Assembly: GCA_000424365.1 (NCBI GenBank)
Contig: AUJT01000022.1
Span: forward strand, 1-64,000
Direction of reading: 5' to 3'
Length of the DNA stretch: 64,000 nt
Source: Lachnospiraceae bacterium NK4A144
Lineage (GTDB): Bacteria > Bacillota > Clostridia > Lachnospirales > Lachnospiraceae
Shown here one piece after another: positions 5,141-63,811 of the stretch (position 1 is its first letter; each line of letters begins with the position of its first letter). Below the pieces are notes generated by a model that saw nothing but the letters and a program-made list of their open reading frames with translations, was not told the DNA's origin and did not search any database. The position numbers were made by a program, and so were the translations under genes.

Positions 5141-5485
5141 GGGGTAGTACTGGCTTCGACAGGGGTCTTGCAGCTGGAGAAGCTATCCGAAGGATGGTTG
5201 CGTTAAACTTCAAACTTAAATTTAAACGCAAACGATAATTACGCGTTAGCAGCAGCCTAAGCGCTTCTGCCGTTGGCCCGGTTCTACCCATGGTTCCGGT
5301 TCCCAACGTCATCATCATGGGAAACGACATTTGCAAAGCTTTGAGCTGATGGGCGTAATATGAAGCTACTGAAACCGTAAGACTGTGCTTCGCCGTGCGG
5401 CAGAGGGAATGTTAATAGAAGTACTATGATAGTAGAAGTACAGGGAATAGGCTTTTGGACACGGGTTCGACTCCCGTCTACTCCA
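5141..5485 (+). ncRNA. ssrA: Transfer-messenger RNA (tmRNA)
   Basis: A ~345-base one-piece tmRNA for trans-translation with SmpB. The 5' acceptor strand GGGGUAG pairs with 3' CUACUCC (one G-U pair), followed by discriminator A. The TψC arm is GGGTTCGACTCCC. The 5' end has the usual CTGGCTTCGACAGGG block. CCA is not encoded at the 3' end (CTA follows the discriminator), so it must be added. The internal reading frame runs 5228-5260. It is convergent with smpB rather than in the same direction, and the two share a terminator. Confidence 0.96.
5228..5260 (+). other. tmRNA proteolysis tag reading frame
   Basis: From resume codon GCA the frame reads ANDNYALAAA followed by TAA. The C-terminal ALAAA is the kind of degron recognised by ClpXP-type proteases. 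The ribosome adds the alanine charged on the tmRNA before this sequence. Confidence 0.9.
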
Positions 5486-5492
5486 CTAAAAC

Positions 5493-44989: not shown

Positions 44990-46234
44990 TTAAGCGTAGA
45001 AATCTCTGATATCCGTATAGCCGGACTTCTCGAGATTGTCTTTCTGGAACTTCTTATTTTTCATCATCTGAGAAACAAGAACTGTTTTTCCTTCTGCACG
45101 AAGATCGGACGCTTCCTTCATGATCGCAGGAACACGGTCTGACGGCATCTTCTTGTCAATAAGGAATGCTACACGCTCTCCTGCTCTCGGAACACAGAAA
45201 TCATGGTCCAGAAGGATCGTTATGATTCTCTCAAATCCAATAGAGAATCCACATGCAGGAACGTTATTTCCGGTAAACTTTCCAACCATTCCGTCGTAAC
45301 GTCCGCCACCGGCGATAGATGAGCCAAACTCTGCGATCTCGATTTCAAAGATCGTTCCTGTATAGTAGGACATTCCGCGTACAAGTGTCGGATCAAATCT
45401 AACATCGAACTCTCCTGCCTTTGAAGCATTTACAGTGTCGATGATCGCCATAAGAGACTCTGCAGTTCCCTCTGGAAGAGCATCACCGAGAGTAGACTTA
45501 AGCTCTGCGATAGCATTACTGTCATTTCCAACTCTGAAAAGTGCGAGATAACGGTCAACATTTTTCTCCGCATATCCCTCTTTCAGAAGTTCTTCGCGCA
45601 CACCATCCTCTCCGATTTTGTCCATCTTGTCAAGGATAATGAATACTTTATCAAGATCCTCCTCCGGGAATCCGCAATGAAGTGCCATTGCACGGAGGAA
45701 TCTTCTATCTGAGATCCTTACTGTAAAGCCCTTGAAATCAAGCTTTGAAAGCAGTGTTGTTGTTGCGAGAACAAGCTCGATCTCGGCAAGATTTGTTGCA
45801 TCTCCGAGGATATCGATATCACACTGCATGAACTGTCTGAAACGCCCCTTCTGCGGACGATCGGCTCTGAACACATTTCCCATCTGAAGTGCCTTAAACG
45901 GAGAAGGAAGTTCATTCATGTGATTTGCGTAGTATCTTGAAAGGGGAAGTGTCAGATCGTATCTGAGTCCTGAATCTGCAAGATCTGAAGCATCTTTTGC
46001 TTCCTCAAGCTTCAGCTTCTCACCTCTCTTAAGAATCCTGAAGATCAATTTCTCATTCTCGCCGCCCTGATTGGAGCAAAGGTTCTCAATATGCTCTACA
46101 CACGGAGTTTCAATCTGTGTAAATCCAAATCTTCCATATGTCTCACGAACCTGTTCCATAACATAGTTCCTGATCTCCATCTCACGTGGAAGAATATCCT
46201 TCATTCCCGTAACCGGTTTCTTCAGTAGTGCCAT
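44990..46234 (-). CDS. hisS: Histidine-tRNA ligase
   Basis: A 414-residue class II synthetase. Motif 1 is FTQIETPCVEH; motif 2 is FRADRPQKGRFRQFMQCDID. The histidine-specific LVRGMSYYTGTIFEI and motif 3 (CGFSIGFERI) are present. The C-terminal anticodon domain is short and ends DIRDFYA. AAGGAG precedes the ATG. The leader before it carries a copy of the 42-base repeat but no T-box motif that I can see. Confidence 0.95.
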   Translation of the reverse strand: MALLKKPVTGMKDILPREMEIRNYVMEQVRETYGRFGFTQIETPCVEHIENLCSNQGGENEKLIFRILKRGEKLKLEEAKDASDLADSGLRYDLTLPLSRYYANHMNELPSPFKALQMGNVFRADRPQKGRFRQFMQCDIDILGDATNLAEIELVLATTTLLSKLDFKGFTVRISDRRFLRAMALHCGFPEEDLDKVFIILDKMDKIGEDGVREELLKEGYAEKNVDRYLALFRVGNDSNAIAELKSTLGDALPEGTAESLMAIIDTVNASKAGEFDVRFDPTLVRGMSYYTGTIFEIEIAEFGSSIAGGGRYDGMVGKFTGNNVPACGFSIGFERIITILLDHDFCVPRAGERVAFLIDKKMPSDRVPAIMKEASDLRAEGKTVLVSQMMKNKKFQKDNLEKSGYTDIRDFYA

Positions 46235-46304: not shown

Positions 46305-46348
46305 TGTGCAAGCACAATCGGATTTTGACCTTTTGACCCTGACATCAT
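46305..46348 (-). repeat. Dispersed intergenic repeat, copy 1
   Basis: A 44-base match to the element also found at 59218-59261, with its invariant 42-base core shared with 63770-63811. It begins with TGTGCAAGCACA and contains TTTTGACC twice in tandem. On the minus strand it starts ten bases after the stop of the metallo-hydrolase gene and ends 70 bases before hisS. It can form a UGUG-CUUG-CACA hairpin in minus-strand RNA. Confidence 0.92.
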
Positions 46349-46358
46349 ACTATCTGAC

Positions 46359-47033
46359 TTACATACTAAACCACATATTCCACTTTTTCTCATTTCCGAC
46401 TGTGGTCTCTCCGCCATGTCCCGGAAGAATATACGTGTCATCCGGAAGTACAACTATTTTCTTCCTGATAGATTCCGTGAGTCTTGCAGATGATCCTGTC
46501 GGAAAATCAGTTCTGCCAACAGAACCTTCAAATACAGTATCTCCCGAGAAAAGCAGTTTTTCATCTTCTATATAATAGCAGCAGCTTCCCTCCGTATGTC
46601 CGGGAGTGTGGATACATTCTATCTGAAATCCTGCAAGTTCGATCTTCTCATGATCCGCCAGCCATATATCGGGTTTTACAGTCACCGGACCGTCTCCATA
46701 ACCCATTCCTGTGCCGGAGCAATTAAGCACCGAGTCCGAAAGCAACGCTCTTTCTTCACTACCTGCATATACGGAAACCGCATGAGCCGCGCCCTTCGGT
46801 ATTCCATAAGCATCATCCGACGCTCTTAAAAGTTCTGCAACACCGGTGATATGATCAAAATGTCCATGTGTCAGCATTACAGCGACAAGATGAAGGTCGT
46901 GTTCGACGACATTCTGAAATATCTTGTCACCCCTGTCACCGGGATCGAACACGACCGCTGTATGCTCCTCTTCGTTTTCCAAAATATAGCAATTTGTCTG
47001 GACCGGTCCTACTATCAGTCTTTGAAGACGCAT
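46359..47033 (-). CDS. MBL-fold metallo-hydrolase (YcbL/glyoxalase II-like)
   Basis: A 224-residue metallo-beta-lactamase-fold hydrolase. Metal ligands are in LTHGHFDH, HTPGHTEGSC and FSGDTVFEG, ending with a PGHGGETT motif. It resembles the short YcbL-like class, for which thioester hydrolysis is common; the substrate is not predictable. It sits 18 bases after rel. Confidence 0.92.
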   Translation of the reverse strand: MRLQRLIVGPVQTNCYILENEEEHTAVVFDPGDRGDKIFQNVVEHDLHLVAVMLTHGHFDHITGVAELLRASDDAYGIPKGAAHAVSVYAGSEERALLSDSVLNCSGTGMGYGDGPVTVKPDIWLADHEKIELAGFQIECIHTPGHTEGSCCYYIEDEKLLFSGDTVFEGSVGRTDFPTGSSARLTESIRKKIVVLPDDTYILPGHGGETTVGNEKKWNMWFSM

Positions 47034-57435: not shown

Positions 57436-58326
57436 ATGCTTTACGGAAATATGAGAGACGGCGTTACCGAACCGCCGGTTGATCTGCATGTTCATTCCAC
57501 TGCTTCGGACGGAACCTATACACCTTCCGAGCTGGTTGACTACGCAATAAAAAAGGGACTCGCCGCGATAGCACTTACAGATCACGATACCGTCGCAGGT
57601 CTACAAGAGATCAGAGACTATGCCGCATCACTGGAAAACGCTCCTGAGATCATAAACGGTATAGAATTATCAACCGATCTTAACGGTAAGGATATCCATA
57701 TCGTCGGTCTCTTTATCGATGAAACAGAGCCTGAATTTTTAAATAATCTGGAAGTTTTCAGAAATTCCCGCGATGTCAGAAACGAAAAAATGTGCAGAGG
57801 TCTCCGCGAAGGACTTCATATGGACATATCCTTTTCACAGCTGAAAGAAGCCTTTCCGGGCGCTGTCATCACCCGAGCCCATTATGCAAAATACATGCTG
57901 AAACATGGATATGTACAAAGCACCCAGGAGGCATTTGACCGATATATAGGTGACGGCTGTCCATACTTTGTCCCGCGTGAAAAAGTCACCCCTGTTGATG
58001 GGATAAGACTAATAAAAAAGGCTCACGGTATCCCCGTACTTGCGCATCCTCTTCTCTACGGGATGTCTCATGACAGGCTGGATTCTCTTGTAACTGACCT
58101 AAAAACAGAGGGACTTGCTGCCATGGAAACAATATATACCACTTTTTCAGCCGGCGAAACAAATGAAATGAAAGCAATGGCGGATGCACACGGTCTATTA
58201 TGGTCGGGAGGTTCTGATTTCCACGGAAGCAACAAAACCAACACCGATCTTGGTACAGGGCGCGGAAATCTTTTTATCCCGCTTTCCGTCCTTGAAAAGC
58301 TAAGAGATCATCATAAACATTGCTAA
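57436..58326 (+). CDS. PHP-domain phosphoesterase
   Basis: A 296-residue metal-dependent phosphoesterase of the polymerase/histidinol phosphatase family. Motifs are DLHVHSTASDG, ALTDHDTVAG, GIELSTD, a mid-protein PVLAHPL and GSDFHGS. It resembles the YciV/TrpH class that acts on 3',5'-bisphosphonucleosides or 5'-RNA ends; the exact substrate is inferred. AAAGGA lies ten bases before the ATG; an ATG 15 bases later is a possible alternative. Confidence 0.9.
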   Translation: MLYGNMRDGVTEPPVDLHVHSTASDGTYTPSELVDYAIKKGLAAIALTDHDTVAGLQEIRDYAASLENAPEIINGIELSTDLNGKDIHIVGLFIDETEPEFLNNLEVFRNSRDVRNEKMCRGLREGLHMDISFSQLKEAFPGAVITRAHYAKYMLKHGYVQSTQEAFDRYIGDGCPYFVPREKVTPVDGIRLIKKAHGIPVLAHPLLYGMSHDRLDSLVTDLKTEGLAAMETIYTTFSAGETNEMKAMADAHGLLWSGGSDFHGSNKTNTDLGTGRGNLFIPLSVLEKLRDHHKHC

Positions 58327-58346
58327 AACCAGGAGTTCTTAAAGAT

Positions 58347-59180
58347 ATGACTAACGACAGAAAATTTCTTTTTGTAGATTTGGACGAAACACTTCTAACC
58401 AGCGATAAACGCATAGATGGCACTGATCTCGAAGCGATAAATGAAATGCTGGATCAGGGGCACTGCTTTGCATTTGTAACAGGCCGTCCCTACCCTGACA
58501 CGATATGTATAGCAGAAAGATACCGTCTCGTCCGTGACGGCTTTTATATCGCAAGCTACAATGGCTCTCAGATCAATAATCCTGTTACGGGAGATGTCCT
58601 TTATGCCTCTCCTGTATCCATAAGTGATGTCCGGATGATCTTTGAAACCGCTGCCGAAAAAGACGTACACTGCCAGACCTACGACAGAAATTATGTGATC
58701 GCAACAGGCGGACAGGAAATACTGGATGCATATCTCAAGGGAAAAGTCATGGAACCTCTGATCGTTCCGACTATTGATGACGTGATAGATTCTCTCACAG
58801 CACCTCCTATGAAAGTTATCTGCATGGCTCTTGATGACCGCCCAAAGCTGCAGCGCTTTCGCGAGTATATAGAACCGCTCCTGCCTTCACGCTTAAATAC
58901 CTTTTTCTCAAGCGATAGGATTTTGGAGATCAGTGCATCCGATTCTTCTAAGGGAACAGGTCTTAAGCGACTCTGCGAGATAACAGGCATACCTGTTGCA
59001 AACTCCATCGGTGCAGGTGATGAAGAAAATGATCTTCCTCTCCTCAAAGCAGCAGGCTTAGGTGTAGCAATGGCTAACGCACGTGAAGAGGTAAAAAATG
59101 CCGCAGACGTCGTCACTGAACATGACAACAACCACGGCGGCATTGCTGAGATCATTTACAAATATATTCTTCAAGTATGA
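58347..59180 (+). CDS. Cof-type HAD-IIB phosphatase
   Basis: A 277-residue haloacid-dehalogenase-superfamily hydrolase with a C2B cap. Motif I is FVDLDETLLTSD, motif II Thr lies in FVTGRPYPD, motif III Lys in SSKGTGLKRL, and motif IV is IGAGDEENDLPLL. Substrates in this family are varied sugar phosphates or flavin precursors. The start is ATG 58347 with GGAG upstream, 20 bases after the PHP gene, so the two are probably co-transcribed. Confidence 0.9.
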   Translation: MTNDRKFLFVDLDETLLTSDKRIDGTDLEAINEMLDQGHCFAFVTGRPYPDTICIAERYRLVRDGFYIASYNGSQINNPVTGDVLYASPVSISDVRMIFETAAEKDVHCQTYDRNYVIATGGQEILDAYLKGKVMEPLIVPTIDDVIDSLTAPPMKVICMALDDRPKLQRFREYIEPLLPSRLNTFFSSDRILEISASDSSKGTGLKRLCEITGIPVANSIGAGDEENDLPLLKAAGLGVAMANAREEVKNAADVVTEHDNNHGGIAEIIYKYILQV

Positions 59181-59184
59181 TGAT

Positions 59185-59261
59185 ATGATGTCAGGGTCCC
59201 AAGGTCTCAATCCTCTTTGTGCAAGCACAATCGGATTTTGACCTTTTGACCCTGACATCAT
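59185..59261. repeat. Dispersed intergenic repeat, copy 2, in 77-base palindromic form
   Basis: The right half (59218-59261) is identical to copy 1. The left half (59185-59222) is a diverged inverted partner: 14 outer bases (ATGATGTCAGGGTC) match exactly, and about 30 of 37 positions match overall with one indel. The whole element fills the 104-base gap between convergent genes, starting four bases after the Cof-type gene stop. It can fold into a long hairpin on either strand. No good U-run follows. Confidence 0.92.
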
Positions 59262-59284
59262 GATATTCAAACTAACTTTGACAT

Positions 59285-59932
59285 TTAAAGAAACTTCTCC
59301 ACTTCATCCGGGGTAGTAACGATCGCATCCGGGTGAAGTTCCTCAAGCTCTGCTCTGTCCCGAAATCCCCAGAGAACACCGATAGTAAACATACCGGCAG
59401 ATATTCCGGTCTTCATATCTGTATTTGTGTCACCAAGGTACAGACATTCAGAGGGATCTACTCCAAATTCCTTAGCAGCCATCAGCGCCATATCCGGAGC
59501 CGGTTTCTTGGGAATACCTTCTTTCTGCCCGATCACAAGGTCAAAAGTCCCAGCAGGATAAACTGCGTCTGCAACCTTTACCGACTTTGCGTGAGGCTTA
59601 TTGGAACAAACCGCGATCTTCATCCCCTTAGCTTTCATCTTTTCGATAAGCTCAGGTACTCCCTTGCAGGGTGTCACATGATAGAGACACCCTTCCTCAA
59701 ATTCTTCCAGATACCGTGCATATACTTTCTGTATGATGTCCTCATCAGAAACACCATGGATCTTCATCACACGCCGTATCTGAGTTTCTGCGCCATCACC
59801 TACAATAGTCTTAAATCTTTCCAGCTCTATTTCAGGATAACCAAACTCTTTTAATACCGTGTTGGTAGTATGTGCGATCGACTCCAAAGAGTCTGTAATG
59901 GTTCCATCCATATCAAAGAGTGCTGCCTTCAT
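59285..59932 (-). CDS. HAD-IA phosphatase, phosphoglycolate phosphatase-like
   Basis: A 215-residue HAD hydrolase. Motif I is LFDMDGTITDS, motif II Ser lies in VCSNKPHAKS, motif III Lys in GIPKKPAPDM, and motif IV is YLGDTNTDM. It fits the Gph/PpaX class; PpaX-type enzymes hydrolyse pyrophosphate, and with ppk directly upstream either activity is plausible. GGAGGAAGGA precedes the ATG, which overlaps the ppk end by 20 bases. Confidence 0.9.
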   Translation of the reverse strand: MKAALFDMDGTITDSLESIAHTTNTVLKEFGYPEIELERFKTIVGDGAETQIRRVMKIHGVSDEDIIQKVYARYLEEFEEGCLYHVTPCKGVPELIEKMKAKGMKIAVCSNKPHAKSVKVADAVYPAGTFDLVIGQKEGIPKKPAPDMALMAAKEFGVDPSECLYLGDTNTDMKTGISAGMFTIGVLWGFRDRAELEELHPDAIVTTPDEVEKFL

Positions 59933-62183
59933 TTCCTTCCTCCCTTGGTGCTTTCTCCGGAATGAACACTCTTTCAGAGATCACATCTTTCTTTTTATTA
60001 GCATTTTCCTTCGCTTCCTTGCAGAAGTATTTTTGAGAGTTAAGCGGTTTCTTTCCTCTCTTATCAATCTTTATGTAGTCTCCGTTCGGCTGGAGCATAT
60101 GAGCTTTTGTATTATCATCAAGTTCTACCTGCAGGAAGTGGCGAAGATCTTCCTTAAGTTCTTCCCGTTCCACCGGAAACATGATCTCTACACGGCGATC
60201 CAGATTACGCGGCATCCAGTCCGCTGAACCCATGTAAAATTCATCATTTCCCTCATTGTAAAACCAGAATATGCGGCTGTGTTCAAGGAAAAATCCTACA
60301 ATAGAACATACTGTAATATTTTCGGATACTCCCGGTATGCCGACTTTAAGACAGCATATACCGCGAACTATCAGGTCTATTTTTACACCCGCTGCCGATG
60401 CCTTGTAAAGAGCCTCTATAATATCAGGATCACAAACAGAATTCATCTTTGCTACGATGTGCGCTTCTCTGCCGTGCCGGGCATTCTCTGCCTCACGACC
60501 TATGAGATATATAAATCTGTCCTTAAGCCAAAGAGGGGCAAGCGACAGCTTATTCCATGTAGCAGGCTCAGAATAACCTGACAGCATATTGAAAACCGCT
60601 GTTGCATCCTCTCCTATAGGCTCAGAGCAGGTAAACAGTCCCATATCCGTGTAAAACTTCGCAGTCGTATCGTTGTAATTACCTGTTCCGAGATGAACAT
60701 ATCTGCGGATACCCTCCTCTTCACGACGTACCACAAGCGCTATCTTTGAATGAGTCTTTAATCCTACCAGACCGTATATTACATGACAGCCGGCTTTTTC
60801 AAGAGTCTTTGCCCAGTTGATATTATGCTCCTCATCAAAACGGGCTTTCAGCTCCACAAGTACAGAAACCTGCTTACCGTTTTCTGCAGCATAAGCAAGC
60901 GCCGCGATGATAGGAGAATTACCGCTCACTCTGTAGAGCGTCATCTTGATCGCCAAAACATCCTTATCTCTGGCAGCTGTACGGATAAAATCAACTACCG
61001 GTTCAAAAGATTCATACGGGTGCTGCAGAAGGATATCTCCCTTCCTTATCTGCTCAAAAATATTCTCCTCAGGATTCATATATTTCGGAGACTGTGGAGT
61101 CCATCCCTTTATCTTCAGACTTTCAAATCCCGGAAGTCCTGCGACCTTTGACAGGAATGTAAGATCGAGCGGTCCGTTGATATAATATGTTTCCGCGTCA
61201 TCAACCTGAAACTCATCCCGAAGGAGCCTTAAGAGATTTCTATCCATGCTTTCTTCTACGTCAAGCCGGATAACTTCTCCCCACTGACGTCTCTTAAGCT
61301 GCCTCTCGATCTCTTTCAGGAGATCCTCTGCCTCATCTTCATCGATCGTCAGATCCGCATTTCTCATGATCCGGAAAGGATGCGCACATACGATATTGTA
61401 ATTTAAGAATAACCGGTCAATATTTCTCTCGATCAGTTCTTCAAGAAGTATTACCGTATAATTATCATCAGTTGCCGGTATCCGGACTATCCTCGGCAAA
61501 ACATCAGGAACCTGAACAAGCGCAAACTCAGGCTTATCATTATTATTTTCTTTATCTTCTTTATCTTCTTTTGTTTTTCCGCCTGAACGGTTTCTCAAAG
61601 AATGGGCTGCATCCTTAGGATAAACCAGCGCACCGATATTTAAGGATTTATTTCTGACAAGCGGAAACGGCCTCGATGAATCCACTGCCATAGGAGTGAG
61701 AACAGGATAAACATGTTCCTCGAAATATCTGTCAACATATTCTTCCTGTTCCGGCACCAGATCTTCGTGATGAGTCACCACAGTGATCCCATTCTGTTTA
61801 AGAAGTGGAAGTATCGAGCGATTATATGTAGAATACTGGAGATTTACAAAATCATGCGTCACACCATTAAGCGCACCTAACTGCTGCGCTGCCGTCATAC
61901 CTGCAATATCCTTCTTCGTATATTCCACATTTACCATGTCCTTAAGAGATGCGACACGTACCATAAAAAATTCATCGAGATTAGACGCAGTAATTCCCAG
62001 CATCTTTACTCTTTCAAAAAGCGGAAGAGTCTTGTCCCTCGCCTCCGAAAGCACTCTCTCATTAAATTTTATCCATGATAATTCTCTGTTTGTATAATAC
62101 TTAGGTGACCTAAAGTCTATCTTCTGCGTTTCCCTTTTTCCACCCTTTTTATCTGTCTTACGACCTGCTTTAGAATCTATCAT
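59913..62183 (-). CDS. ppk1: Polyphosphate kinase 1
   Basis: A 756-residue enzyme making inorganic polyphosphate from ATP. The N-terminal domain has RELSWIKFNERVLSEA. The catalytic C-terminal domains contain the histidine motifs LKTHSKIALV and VHLGTGNYNDTTAKFYTD. A Lys/Asp/Asn-rich insertion (near residues 200-215) is low complexity. GGAGGG precedes the ATG. It is followed by a HAD phosphatase and preceded by ppx. Confidence 0.96.
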   Translation of the reverse strand: MIDSKAGRKTDKKGGKRETQKIDFRSPKYYTNRELSWIKFNERVLSEARDKTLPLFERVKMLGITASNLDEFFMVRVASLKDMVNVEYTKKDIAGMTAAQQLGALNGVTHDFVNLQYSTYNRSILPLLKQNGITVVTHHEDLVPEQEEYVDRYFEEHVYPVLTPMAVDSSRPFPLVRNKSLNIGALVYPKDAAHSLRNRSGGKTKEDKEDKENNNDKPEFALVQVPDVLPRIVRIPATDDNYTVILLEELIERNIDRLFLNYNIVCAHPFRIMRNADLTIDEDEAEDLLKEIERQLKRRQWGEVIRLDVEESMDRNLLRLLRDEFQVDDAETYYINGPLDLTFLSKVAGLPGFESLKIKGWTPQSPKYMNPEENIFEQIRKGDILLQHPYESFEPVVDFIRTAARDKDVLAIKMTLYRVSGNSPIIAALAYAAENGKQVSVLVELKARFDEEHNINWAKTLEKAGCHVIYGLVGLKTHSKIALVVRREEEGIRRYVHLGTGNYNDTTAKFYTDMGLFTCSEPIGEDATAVFNMLSGYSEPATWNKLSLAPLWLKDRFIYLIGREAENARHGREAHIVAKMNSVCDPDIIEALYKASAAGVKIDLIVRGICCLKVGIPGVSENITVCSIVGFFLEHSRIFWFYNEGNDEFYMGSADWMPRNLDRRVEIMFPVEREELKEDLRHFLQVELDDNTKAHMLQPNGDYIKIDKRGKKPLNSQKYFCKEAKENANKKKDVISERVFIPEKAPREEGNEGSTL

Positions 62184-62202
62184 TCGAATATCCCTCCATA
62201 CT

Positions 62203-63741
62203 CTATAAAAAGACCCCTTTTGTCCTCATAACCGGTCTGATTCCGAACACTTCTTCAAACATAGGTATTTCTTCTTCAAAAAGCCCTTTTTCAAGAGAAA
62301 GATCTTCCCTTGTATCGATCGTAATGATCAAAGACTTATCCTTCAGTGATGCTTTCACCTCATTATATTTTTTCTTAGGAGAACGAGCCAGTCCTACTGC
62401 TACACGGAGCATAGCGGTAAGCTTAGTCACCATAAGAAGACTCTTTTCATCAAAATCATTATCTTCAAGAGCCTCATAATATATTTCCTTTGGATAAGAA
62501 TTAAGAACGACCGTTGCTACTATTTCGCGTTCCAGATGAGACAGTCCTATGATCTCTGTCCCCATTATGATGCTGTAGGATGCTTCCGCAGAATCCGACA
62601 TCGAAACAAAACGTCCGACATCCCTGAGCCTTGCCGCGAGCTGGAGTAACAGTCTCCCTCTCTTGTCCATTCCATGAAGTTTTTTCATGCTGTCAAAAAT
62701 AGCCATGGAACAAAGAACCATCTGATCTCCGAGAACCTGGCTTCCCTGATACCTGAGAGATATATTCTCCGCACATGAAATAATATCTTCCTCAAAGTTA
62801 TGATCAGACTTAACAAACTTATTTTTTTCTGCATAGTCATAAGCTATGCCGTCAGACAGCGTTACTCCCGGAATCCAAAGTCTCTCTGCACCCGTCACAC
62901 GTATCATATACTTGATAAGGGTCGCTGACGGCATAAGAAGCGAAGCATTCTCTCTCGGTATCCCCAGCTCTCTGGAAATCTGGGCAGGCGACATCGATCT
63001 CAGTACATCTACAAATTTCACATACTGATCTCCCGTAACCTGATTTATAAGGCCATGCTTATTCCCGATCTTCTGGATGATATACGGCAGATAATCATCG
63101 ATCACGACGATATTCTGGATATCGATGTTATTTAGATATAGTTTCTTGAATGAATGCAGTTCGTTTGCGATGAGTTCTGACAACAATCTATCGTAGTTCC
63201 CTGTAGTCGGTTCCAGCGAATTAAGAGTAGTCCTGAGCCTCAGGATTCCAAGTCGCAGATTTACTGTTGTTATAAGATGTGAATTGGAAAACAGTGAAAC
63301 CTGTGTACTTCCCCCTCCTATATCTATAAATGCCGTCCCTCTGTCTATTATGTGATCAAACTGCTCACTTTTTAGAGCTACGGATTTATAATCTAAAAAT
63401 CTCTGCTCAGAATTACTGAGCGGAGATACATTTATCCCTGTACGGAGACGTATCTGATCTAAAATAACCGAAGTATTTTCCGTTTCTCTGATCGCAGATG
63501 TACCGTAAGCCCGGTAAGAATCAACTTTATAAGCATTCATGATCTCGTGATAACCCTTAAGTATCTCACAGAGCTCATCCATTCTTTCATAACTGATCTT
63601 TCCGGTATTGTAGGTATCCGTTCCGATCTCAACCCTGTGACGCACATAGTCGACCTCACGGACACCTCTCTTCTGAGAAAGCTCAAATATCTTCATGCCT
63701 ATTTCATATGAACCAACGTCTATCGCCGCAAATAGTTTCAT
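62203..63741 (-). CDS. ppx: Ppx/GppA-type exopolyphosphatase
   Basis: A 512-residue enzyme degrading polyphosphate or hydrolysing pppGpp. The N-terminal ASKHA fold has AAIDVGSYEIGMKIFEL and AFIDIGGGSTQVSLF. The C-terminal third resembles the HD-type helical domain of long Ppx proteins (RLRDVGRF, SYSIIMGTEIIGLSHLER). The start is ATG 63741, with AAGGGGA upstream; an open frame continues upstream through the repeat but lacks family sequence. The 19-base gap to ppk1 indicates an operon. Confidence 0.93.
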   Translation of the reverse strand: MKLFAAIDVGSYEIGMKIFELSQKRGVREVDYVRHRVEIGTDTYNTGKISYERMDELCEILKGYHEIMNAYKVDSYRAYGTSAIRETENTSVILDQIRLRTGINVSPLSNSEQRFLDYKSVALKSEQFDHIIDRGTAFIDIGGGSTQVSLFSNSHLITTVNLRLGILRLRTTLNSLEPTTGNYDRLLSELIANELHSFKKLYLNNIDIQNIVVIDDYLPYIIQKIGNKHGLINQVTGDQYVKFVDVLRSMSPAQISRELGIPRENASLLMPSATLIKYMIRVTGAERLWIPGVTLSDGIAYDYAEKNKFVKSDHNFEEDIISCAENISLRYQGSQVLGDQMVLCSMAIFDSMKKLHGMDKRGRLLLQLAARLRDVGRFVSMSDSAEASYSIIMGTEIIGLSHLEREIVATVVLNSYPKEIYYEALEDNDFDEKSLLMVTKLTAMLRVAVGLARSPKKKYNEVKASLKDKSLIITIDTREDLSLEKGLFEEEIPMFEEVFGIRPVMRTKGVFL

Positions 63742-63769
63742 ACACAATCCCCTTTTGTATCTAAACCCC

Positions 63770-63811
63770 TGTGCAAGCACAATCGGATTTTGACCTTTTG
63801 ACCCTGACATC
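63770..63811 (-). repeat. Dispersed intergenic repeat, copy 3
   Basis: The 42-base core, identical to copies 1 and 2, lies between the DUF815-type gene and ppx. On the minus strand it begins 15 bases after the upstream stop codon, and ppx starts 28 bases beyond its end. There is no inverted partner. Confidence 0.92.

Follow-up and report, generated by a model that had tools for sequence, protein, structure and literature searches.

Truncated 42-base repeats in Lachnospiraceae bacterium NK4A144 as probable remnants of a mobile element with a Clostridiales-1 RNA body

The 42-base repeats of the window

The window analysed here is a stretch of 64,000 nucleotides from Lachnospiraceae bacterium NK4A144 (contig AUJT01000022.1), which forms the start of contig 19 in a genome assembly of 4.09 Mb and 68 contigs. 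It carries three copies of a 42-base sequence, TGTGCAAGCACAATCGGATTTTGACCTTTTGACCCTGACATC, which match exactly on the plus strand at 46305-46346, 59218-59259 and 63770-63811, as the initial annotation had reported; no match was obtained in 100 dinucleotide shuffles. A minus-strand gene ends near the RNA-5' side of each copy, at 12, 25 and 15 bases from the 42-mer according to our own open reading frame (ORF) calls (L025-L027). These distances agree with the 10, 23 and 15 bases given previously, where the first two cores were taken to be slightly longer. The analysis described below suggests that the 42-mers are remnants of a high-copy miniature inverted-repeat transposable element (MITE) with the body of the Clostridiales-1 RNA (RF01699).

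Two features had not been described before. Many other copies extend beyond the 42-mer, which forms just one end of an element commonly 190 bp long, and the second window copy is part of a 73-bp near-palindrome (59187-59259) that lies between direct repeats of ATGATAT. The left repeat begins at the final base of the TGA stop codon of the convergent plus-strand gene (Table 1).

Identity with Clostridiales-1 RNA

The 42-mer is the 5' end of RF01699 and comprises one strand of stem P1 together with the rising arm and loop of P2. Full copies match the whole model at 110-143 bits (gathering threshold 48) in all 11 of the loci scanned, which come from this genome and from others. The RNA strand, which is the minus strand in the window, begins GATGTCAGGG. 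The consensus structure is closed by stem P1 and contains three hairpins: P2, which is long and has a GCUUGC tip, P3 and P4. A survey of the genus found RF01699 above the cut-off in 41 of 48 genomes and some match in 43, with no match in 14 control genomes.

The 42-mer had been taken for a functional unit; it is instead the 5' part of this RNA, and the window copies are degenerate. The copy at 46305 retains only the 5' strand of P1, the rising arm of P2 and the apical loop, while P3, P4 and the other end are gone. In the 73-bp derivative P1 and P2 are complete, P3 and P4 are cleanly deleted and the sequence folds into a single long hairpin. A cmscan of 59186-59260 gives 46 bits on the minus strand, short of the threshold of 48, and 24 bits on the plus strand, with an alignment that skips 89 model positions (P3, P4 and their linkers); a window-wide scan at gathering level yields the transfer-messenger RNA (tmRNA) alone.

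Across the genus and family, copies of widely differing sequence share this fold. The perfect conservation that was first noted is therefore a sign of recent copying, one of the two options then proposed, and not of invariance. Many copies with a different P1, GATTAAAGCGCCAAAAG, are present in genomes G027 and G006 (L324-L332, L308, L362, L363 and L367). This P1 may represent the ends for another transposase subgroup; the single end at L320, GATTTAAGCGTCAAAAG, offers a comparison.

Table 1. Element copies, duplications and genes in the window.
Feature	Position	Strand	Basis
Truncated Clostridiales-1 copy (copy 1)	46305..46346	-	Exact 42-mer, full-copy comparison, Rfam structure
73-bp Clostridiales-1 derivative (copy 2)	59187..59259	-	cmscan, fold z-score -10
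Left target-site duplication ATGATAT	59180..59186	.	Read directly; G009 has a single ATGATA-like copy
Right target-site duplication ATGATAT	59260..59266	.	Read directly
Truncated Clostridiales-1 copy, like 46305 (copy 3)	63770..63811	-	Exact 42-mer, G009 comparison
Histidyl-tRNA synthetase-like protein, downstream of copy 1	44990..46234	-	Pfam PF13393
Metallo-beta-lactamase-fold protein, upstream of copy 1	46359..47033	-	Pfam PF00753
HAD-like hydrolase, convergent to copy 2	58320..59180	+	Pfam PF08282
HAD hydrolase, upstream of copy 2 on the element strand	59285..59932	-	Pfam PF13419
Ppx/GppA phosphatase, downstream of copy 3 (start 63741 our own choice)	62203..63741	-	Pfam PF02541
tmRNA gene	5141..5488	+	Rfam RF00023

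Copies across the genome

A search of the whole genome for the 42-base core, as the initial annotation had advised, returned 63 copies with at most 3 mismatches, 40 of them exact (reversed-pattern control, 0), in line with a repeat family. Two copies at contig ends, with 112 bases identical to another copy, were dropped, leaving what are probably 61 separate copies. Comparison of the flanks sorted these into 26 elements of 190 bp, nine 157-bp cores without the outer second end, eight full forms of 143-399 bp, seven short forms (five of the 59187 type, one of 81 bp and one of 90 bp) and 11 unrecognised copies. Five of the latter stop near the 42-mer by eye (L006, L025, L027, L045 and L061); the other six lie at contig ends or have diverged and were missed by the classification pattern.

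Several variants were observed in passing. In the longer forms L008, L009, L024, L047 and L052 (344-399 bp), the core is separated from the second end by an additional module of 150-210 bp (GGTTACTGTTCACTCGCTTCC...), in which many inverted repeats are visible by eye. The shortest form observed is a bare palindrome of 36-37 bp with the two ends back to back (L120, L125, L241, L253, L270 and L275). At L090 (1501-1530) the end GATGTAAGGGTCAAAAG immediately precedes an ATG and supplies an apparent ribosome-binding site (AAAAGGAGG), and L376 holds two differing RF01699 copies (204-365 and 1501-1659) about 1.1 kb apart. No match to the full element was found in the plasmid collection.

Evidence for mobility

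Each 190-bp copy is bounded by GATGTCAGGGTCAAAAG and, in opposite orientation, GATGTAAGGGTCAAAAG, a pair of imperfect inverted repeats of 17 bp; the forms span 81-399 bp. They are short, carry terminal inverted repeats and have no transposase ORF, as is characteristic of a MITE. Among the copies in this genome that have both ends and both flanks, 24 of 34 are bordered by a direct duplication of 6-8 bp, with one base of slack, compared with a mean of 1.3 and a maximum of 7 in 2000 reshufflings. Read in the RNA sense the duplications are asymmetric, roughly TTWNNAT. A clean empty site is available for L046, where the element lies between two copies of TAAGTAT in this genome and the relative G009 has one TAGGTAT. 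From the ends, the duplications and the empty site it follows that the Clostridiales-1 copies are a MITE, and the earlier suggestion of a recently spread, small mobile repeat of this kind is borne out.

Comparison with relatives also revealed separate insertions at nearby positions. In the intergenic region of L024/L073, insertions of opposite orientation lie about 18 bp apart in this genome and in G009; an in-place inversion was ruled out here, as the two insertions are independent. Near window copy 2, G009 carries a full-length element on the same strand; as this element was inserted independently, about 16 bp away, it was rejected as an ortholog. Outside groEL, four sites are shared between relatives. 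The orientations agree at L019/L372 and L040/L070; those at L032/L337 and L045/L335 are opposite, through either in-place inversion or repeated insertion at one target.

The origin of the truncated forms is apparent at 63770. G009 is free of the element at this site and reads CCCCTGTGCAAAAGC, whereas the window reads CCCCTGTGCAAGCACAATC; the join therefore lies inside TGTGCAA, the first seven bases from 63770, which are common to the host sequence of G009 and the tip of P2. The copy at 46305 breaks off at the same base. The same kind of microhomology truncation is seen at L045; here the host letters read CGTGCAA, and a full copy is present in the relative KH1P17.

An IS1182-type transposase as partner

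The exact end pair occurs 1.7 kb apart around a 522-residue transposase at L266 (Lachnospiraceae ABMPRH_263_2), the only end pair among the 99 stretches listed in the pattern scan of named genomes. This transposon is 1714 bp long, and its contig stops with the element, so that the right flank lies beyond it. The transposase contains DUF772 (PF05598, E 1.1e-10) and DDE_Tnp_1_6 (PF13751, E 1.4e-10) domains. Its best NCBIfam match is NF033551 (IS1182; E 3.3e-38) at 131.8 bits, compared with an equivalog cut-off of 270, and it is therefore a distant subgroup or relative of IS1182. Within the genus of the window, contig 39 of G029 encodes a homologue (58%) with such ends and a 7-bp duplication, ATATAAT. 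These two autonomous partners with the same ends both lie outside the present genome.

Homologues at E below 1e-100 were found in 12 of 397 family genomes. Seven further homologues have 58-65% identity; ends like GATGTTGGGGTCAAAAG flank six of them on both sides (L312-L316 and L323, some with 1-4 altered letters, among them L312 and L313 with several), and the seventh, on the short contig of L318, has such an end on one side. Quite other ends were seen for homologues of 45-53% identity, namely the copy in this genome, its near-twin in G015 and L317. A more diverged end pattern is present on both sides at L303 (GATTAGGGTGTCAAAAG, duplication CTATAAG) and L319, L320-L322 have one diverged end form on one side, and a partial homologue in G003 (54%) has no end. 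As transposons with matching ends exist in this genus and in other Lachnospiraceae, the elements were likely mobilised in trans by an IS1182-type transposase; given the other ends of the homologue in the present genome, we infer that the source lies outside the assembly or has been lost.

No paired transposon was recognised in 18 further stretches around solitary ends, and 28 viral contigs (L168-L195) carry the 17-base end, none of them as a pair within the stretch examined. L300 (contig 15 of this genome, 90600-93293) is an IS1182-type transposon with ends GAGTCGCCCGACAAATG inserted beside a Clostridiales-1-like end. Genome G182 contains a distinct 315-bp MITE (L137, 2046-2360) with long ends, GATGTTRGGGTCAAAAGGTCGCAAA; as a lead to an autonomous element it matched one of 61 genomes, and no transposon was recognised there.

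Position and orientation relative to genes

Gene calls for this analysis were our own longest-ORF heuristics. Between co-directional genes, 29 of the copies in this genome are in sense and nine in antisense (p 0.002; 61 copies), and 60 copies from 12 related genomes of the genus, hand-picked for spread over genomes among the best matches listed, gave 25 and 8 (p 0.005). The combined ratio of 54:17 becomes 51:16 (p 2e-5) when shared insertions are collapsed (L031, with two overlapping copies beside an N run and shared flanks; three groEL copies; L019/L372). In a hand count for this genome, the copies within 30 nt of a stop codon are 18 in sense and 4 in antisense (p 0.004), where for two of the 18 (L040 and L045) the ORF enters the element without a stop. 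The orientation is thus biased genome-wide, and not fixed.

Some copies adjoin housekeeping genes. One starts at the groEL stop codon in each of G027, G365 and G006, with the stop within P1; the arms differ among the three species yet still pair, and the three copies are probably one ancestral insertion. A copy is found there in 3 of 30 scanned groEL loci (the match in L402 lies elsewhere in its locus), and L382 retains a remnant by eye. L381, L385 and L386, which belong to the same group of 95%-identical GroEL sequences, have no match. Copies also adjoin the stop codons of a nusG gene (the second copy of L376) and of a gene for a BMC-domain protein (L361).

The placement at these genes and the sense excess close to stop codons would suit an element that genuinely serves the regulation or processing of mRNA 3' ends and is selected by the host, with mobility as its mode of spread and the groEL copies as adopted 3' untranslated regions (UTRs). 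We consider this somewhat unlikely. Few of the groEL loci carry the copy, even within one closely related group, the window copies are degraded with no obvious consequence, and the groEL copy shows no terminator pattern. An intrinsic terminator role was rejected as well, since pattern scans of a full copy and of a groEL copy gave it no support.

The level of selection

When 30 diverged copies were compared, compensatory change on both sides was seen for 41 of the 45 pairs predicted. The sense strand has 47 G-U cells and 9 A-C cells (29 and 9 when one column is removed), and identity reaches 90% or more in 22 of the unpaired columns. The G-U excess and the conserved unpaired columns point to RNA over DNA. 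Selection probably acts on the RNA, given the sense excess, the compensatory change and the way in which the sense strand tolerates G-U pairs.

These data also bear on the possibility that the fold matters as DNA only, as a cruciform or hairpin recognised by the transposase or the replication machinery, with the sense bias arising because targets near stop codons are asymmetric (about TTWNNAT). The asymmetry of the duplications, the existence of bare 36-37 bp palindromes, the coincidence of P1 with the transposon ends and the opposite orientations at two of the four shared sites, which suggest flipping at the DNA level, would all be in keeping with it. Against it stand the excess of G-U over A-C pairs and the conserved unpaired columns, which are those expected from non-canonical contacts in RNA; moreover, the minimal palindromes lack P3 and P4, which are thus probably dispensable for movement. 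A DNA-only role is accordingly judged to be unlikely.

Two further explanations fare worse. A family of trans-acting small RNA genes, in keeping with the Rfam type 'Gene; sRNA' and with the compact, strongly conserved fold, is very improbable given at least 46 matches in one genome (46 scored of 136 candidates), the absence of a promoter above chance in the one copy scanned and the duplications that mark the copies as insertions. Least probable is a repetitive extragenic palindrome (REP) or bacterial interspersed mosaic element (BIME) moved by a REP-associated tyrosine (Y1) transposase (RAYT), the REP kind having been offered by the initial annotation: the copies are high-copy, short intergenic palindromes and the genome encodes a RAYT-sized Y1_Tnp protein of 270 residues, but no repeat end lies within the 3.3-kb locus of its gene (the sole locus checked among five Y1_Tnp matches), and neither duplications of 7-8 bp nor terminal inverted repeats are expected of Y1 transposases.

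Interpretation

The reading that we favour, at a probability of roughly 0.7, is that a high-copy MITE with a Clostridiales-1 body, IS1182-type ends and selection at the RNA level has left the 42-mers as its remnants. The element is most likely a selfish MITE whose predicted RNA fold would make insertion after stop codons tolerable or useful. The P1 ends GATGTCAGGGTCAAAAG and GATGTAAGGGTCAAAAG match the ends of one subgroup of IS1182-family transposons, and an IS1182-type transposase, acting in trans from a presumed external source, probably inserts the element into AT-rich targets of 7-8 bp. Many copies lie directly after stop codons. If such a copy is in sense, read-through from the upstream gene would yield a transcript in which the element folds as a compact P1-P4 domain, which might protect or insulate the 3' end of the mRNA and so render the insertion harmless or mildly useful. 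Old copies would decay by deletion, in some cases between the (T)GTGCAA of the P2 loop and the same letters in the host, leaving the 42-mer.

A number of observations weigh against this reading. The duplication is absent in 10 of the 34 copies, some RF01699 copies elsewhere with other P1 sequences have no visible duplication, and the site of L001/L205 is not cleanly empty in the relative MC2017, where a short remnant is left. At two of the four shared sites outside groEL, relatives carry the element in opposite orientations. No transposase with matching ends was found in this genome, although one could be missed in an assembly of 68 contigs; its one homologue (E below 1e-20; C15:91692-93197, 50% identity) has the ends GAGTCGCCCGACAAATG. 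The promoter signal was not above chance in the one full copy scanned, and no canonical terminator was found in that copy or in the groEL copy scanned. At more than 30 nt from a stop codon the orientation bias is weak (11:5, p 0.21; hand count, this genome). Finally, orientation scored by the upstream gene alone is 30:30 in the 12 other genomes (39:18 in this one). The 3'-UTR role first proposed is partly supported: the counter-test named for it, random orientation and position, does not refute a tendency towards sense placement after stops between co-directional genes, and the orientation is not constant.

A broader view, which we offer tentatively as possible, is that Clostridiales-1 is a mobile RNA module. 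P1 would serve both as transposon ends and as the closing stem; when inserted after a stop codon by a borrowed IS1182 transposase, the module would become a 3'-UTR domain selected as RNA. It could also invert at its site, exchange the ends of one transposase type for those of another and be adopted by a host gene, as at groEL, where P1 includes the stop codon.

The favoured reading, a MITE with a Clostridiales-1 body, would give an orphan Rfam family a natural history with a named transposase type. It also turns the Clostridiales-1 question into testable ones, namely whether the element is moved by an IS1182 transposase and whether the fold alters mRNA 3' ends or stability. It presents a case in which RNA structure and transposon ends reside in identical bases, perhaps with selection on both levels. 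On the practical side, the abundant near-identical copies may account for contig breaks and noncoding RNA annotations in Lachnospiraceae genomes.

Comparison with known systems

REP and BIME repeats are palindromic and intergenic, often follow genes and are not known to have duplications of this kind; the RAYT associated with them is of a different transposase class from the IS1182 type described here.

A close known counterpart is Clostridiales-1 RNA itself: the same covariance model is matched at full length by the full copies. It was listed in 2010 as a likely RNA that is not cis-regulatory, from Clostridiales and the human gut (Weinberg et al. 2010, PMC2864571). The words 'transposable', 'inverted repeat' and 'mobile' are absent from the main text of that paper. 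Within the literature searched, no description of Clostridiales-1 as a transposable element was found, and the part covered of a 2024 review of prokaryotic MITEs (PMC10969869) lacks the word stems clostrid, butyrivibrio, lachnospir, rfam and is1182. The mobility, the ends, the duplications and the IS1182 partner are what the present analysis adds.

The bcr repeats of the Bacillus cereus group, such as bcr1, are similar by description. They are reported to be MITE-like (bcr1-3) and to reside in UTRs and between operon genes, with 84 of 165 and 62 of 155 bcr copies transcribed in two strains and, among bcr1-3, a correlation with mRNA decay for bcr3 only; no transposase is assigned to them in the portion of the paper covered (PMC3446304).

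The IS1182-family transposons and their MITEs are alike in their ends, 7-bp duplications and transposases, which combine DUF772 with DDE_Tnp_1_6. In Methanosarcina acetivorans, MITEs linked to IS1182 (ISMac2) have listed lengths of 160 and 169 bp (PMC3852290). The body of the element described here is a conserved four-helix RNA and not an internally deleted insertion sequence.

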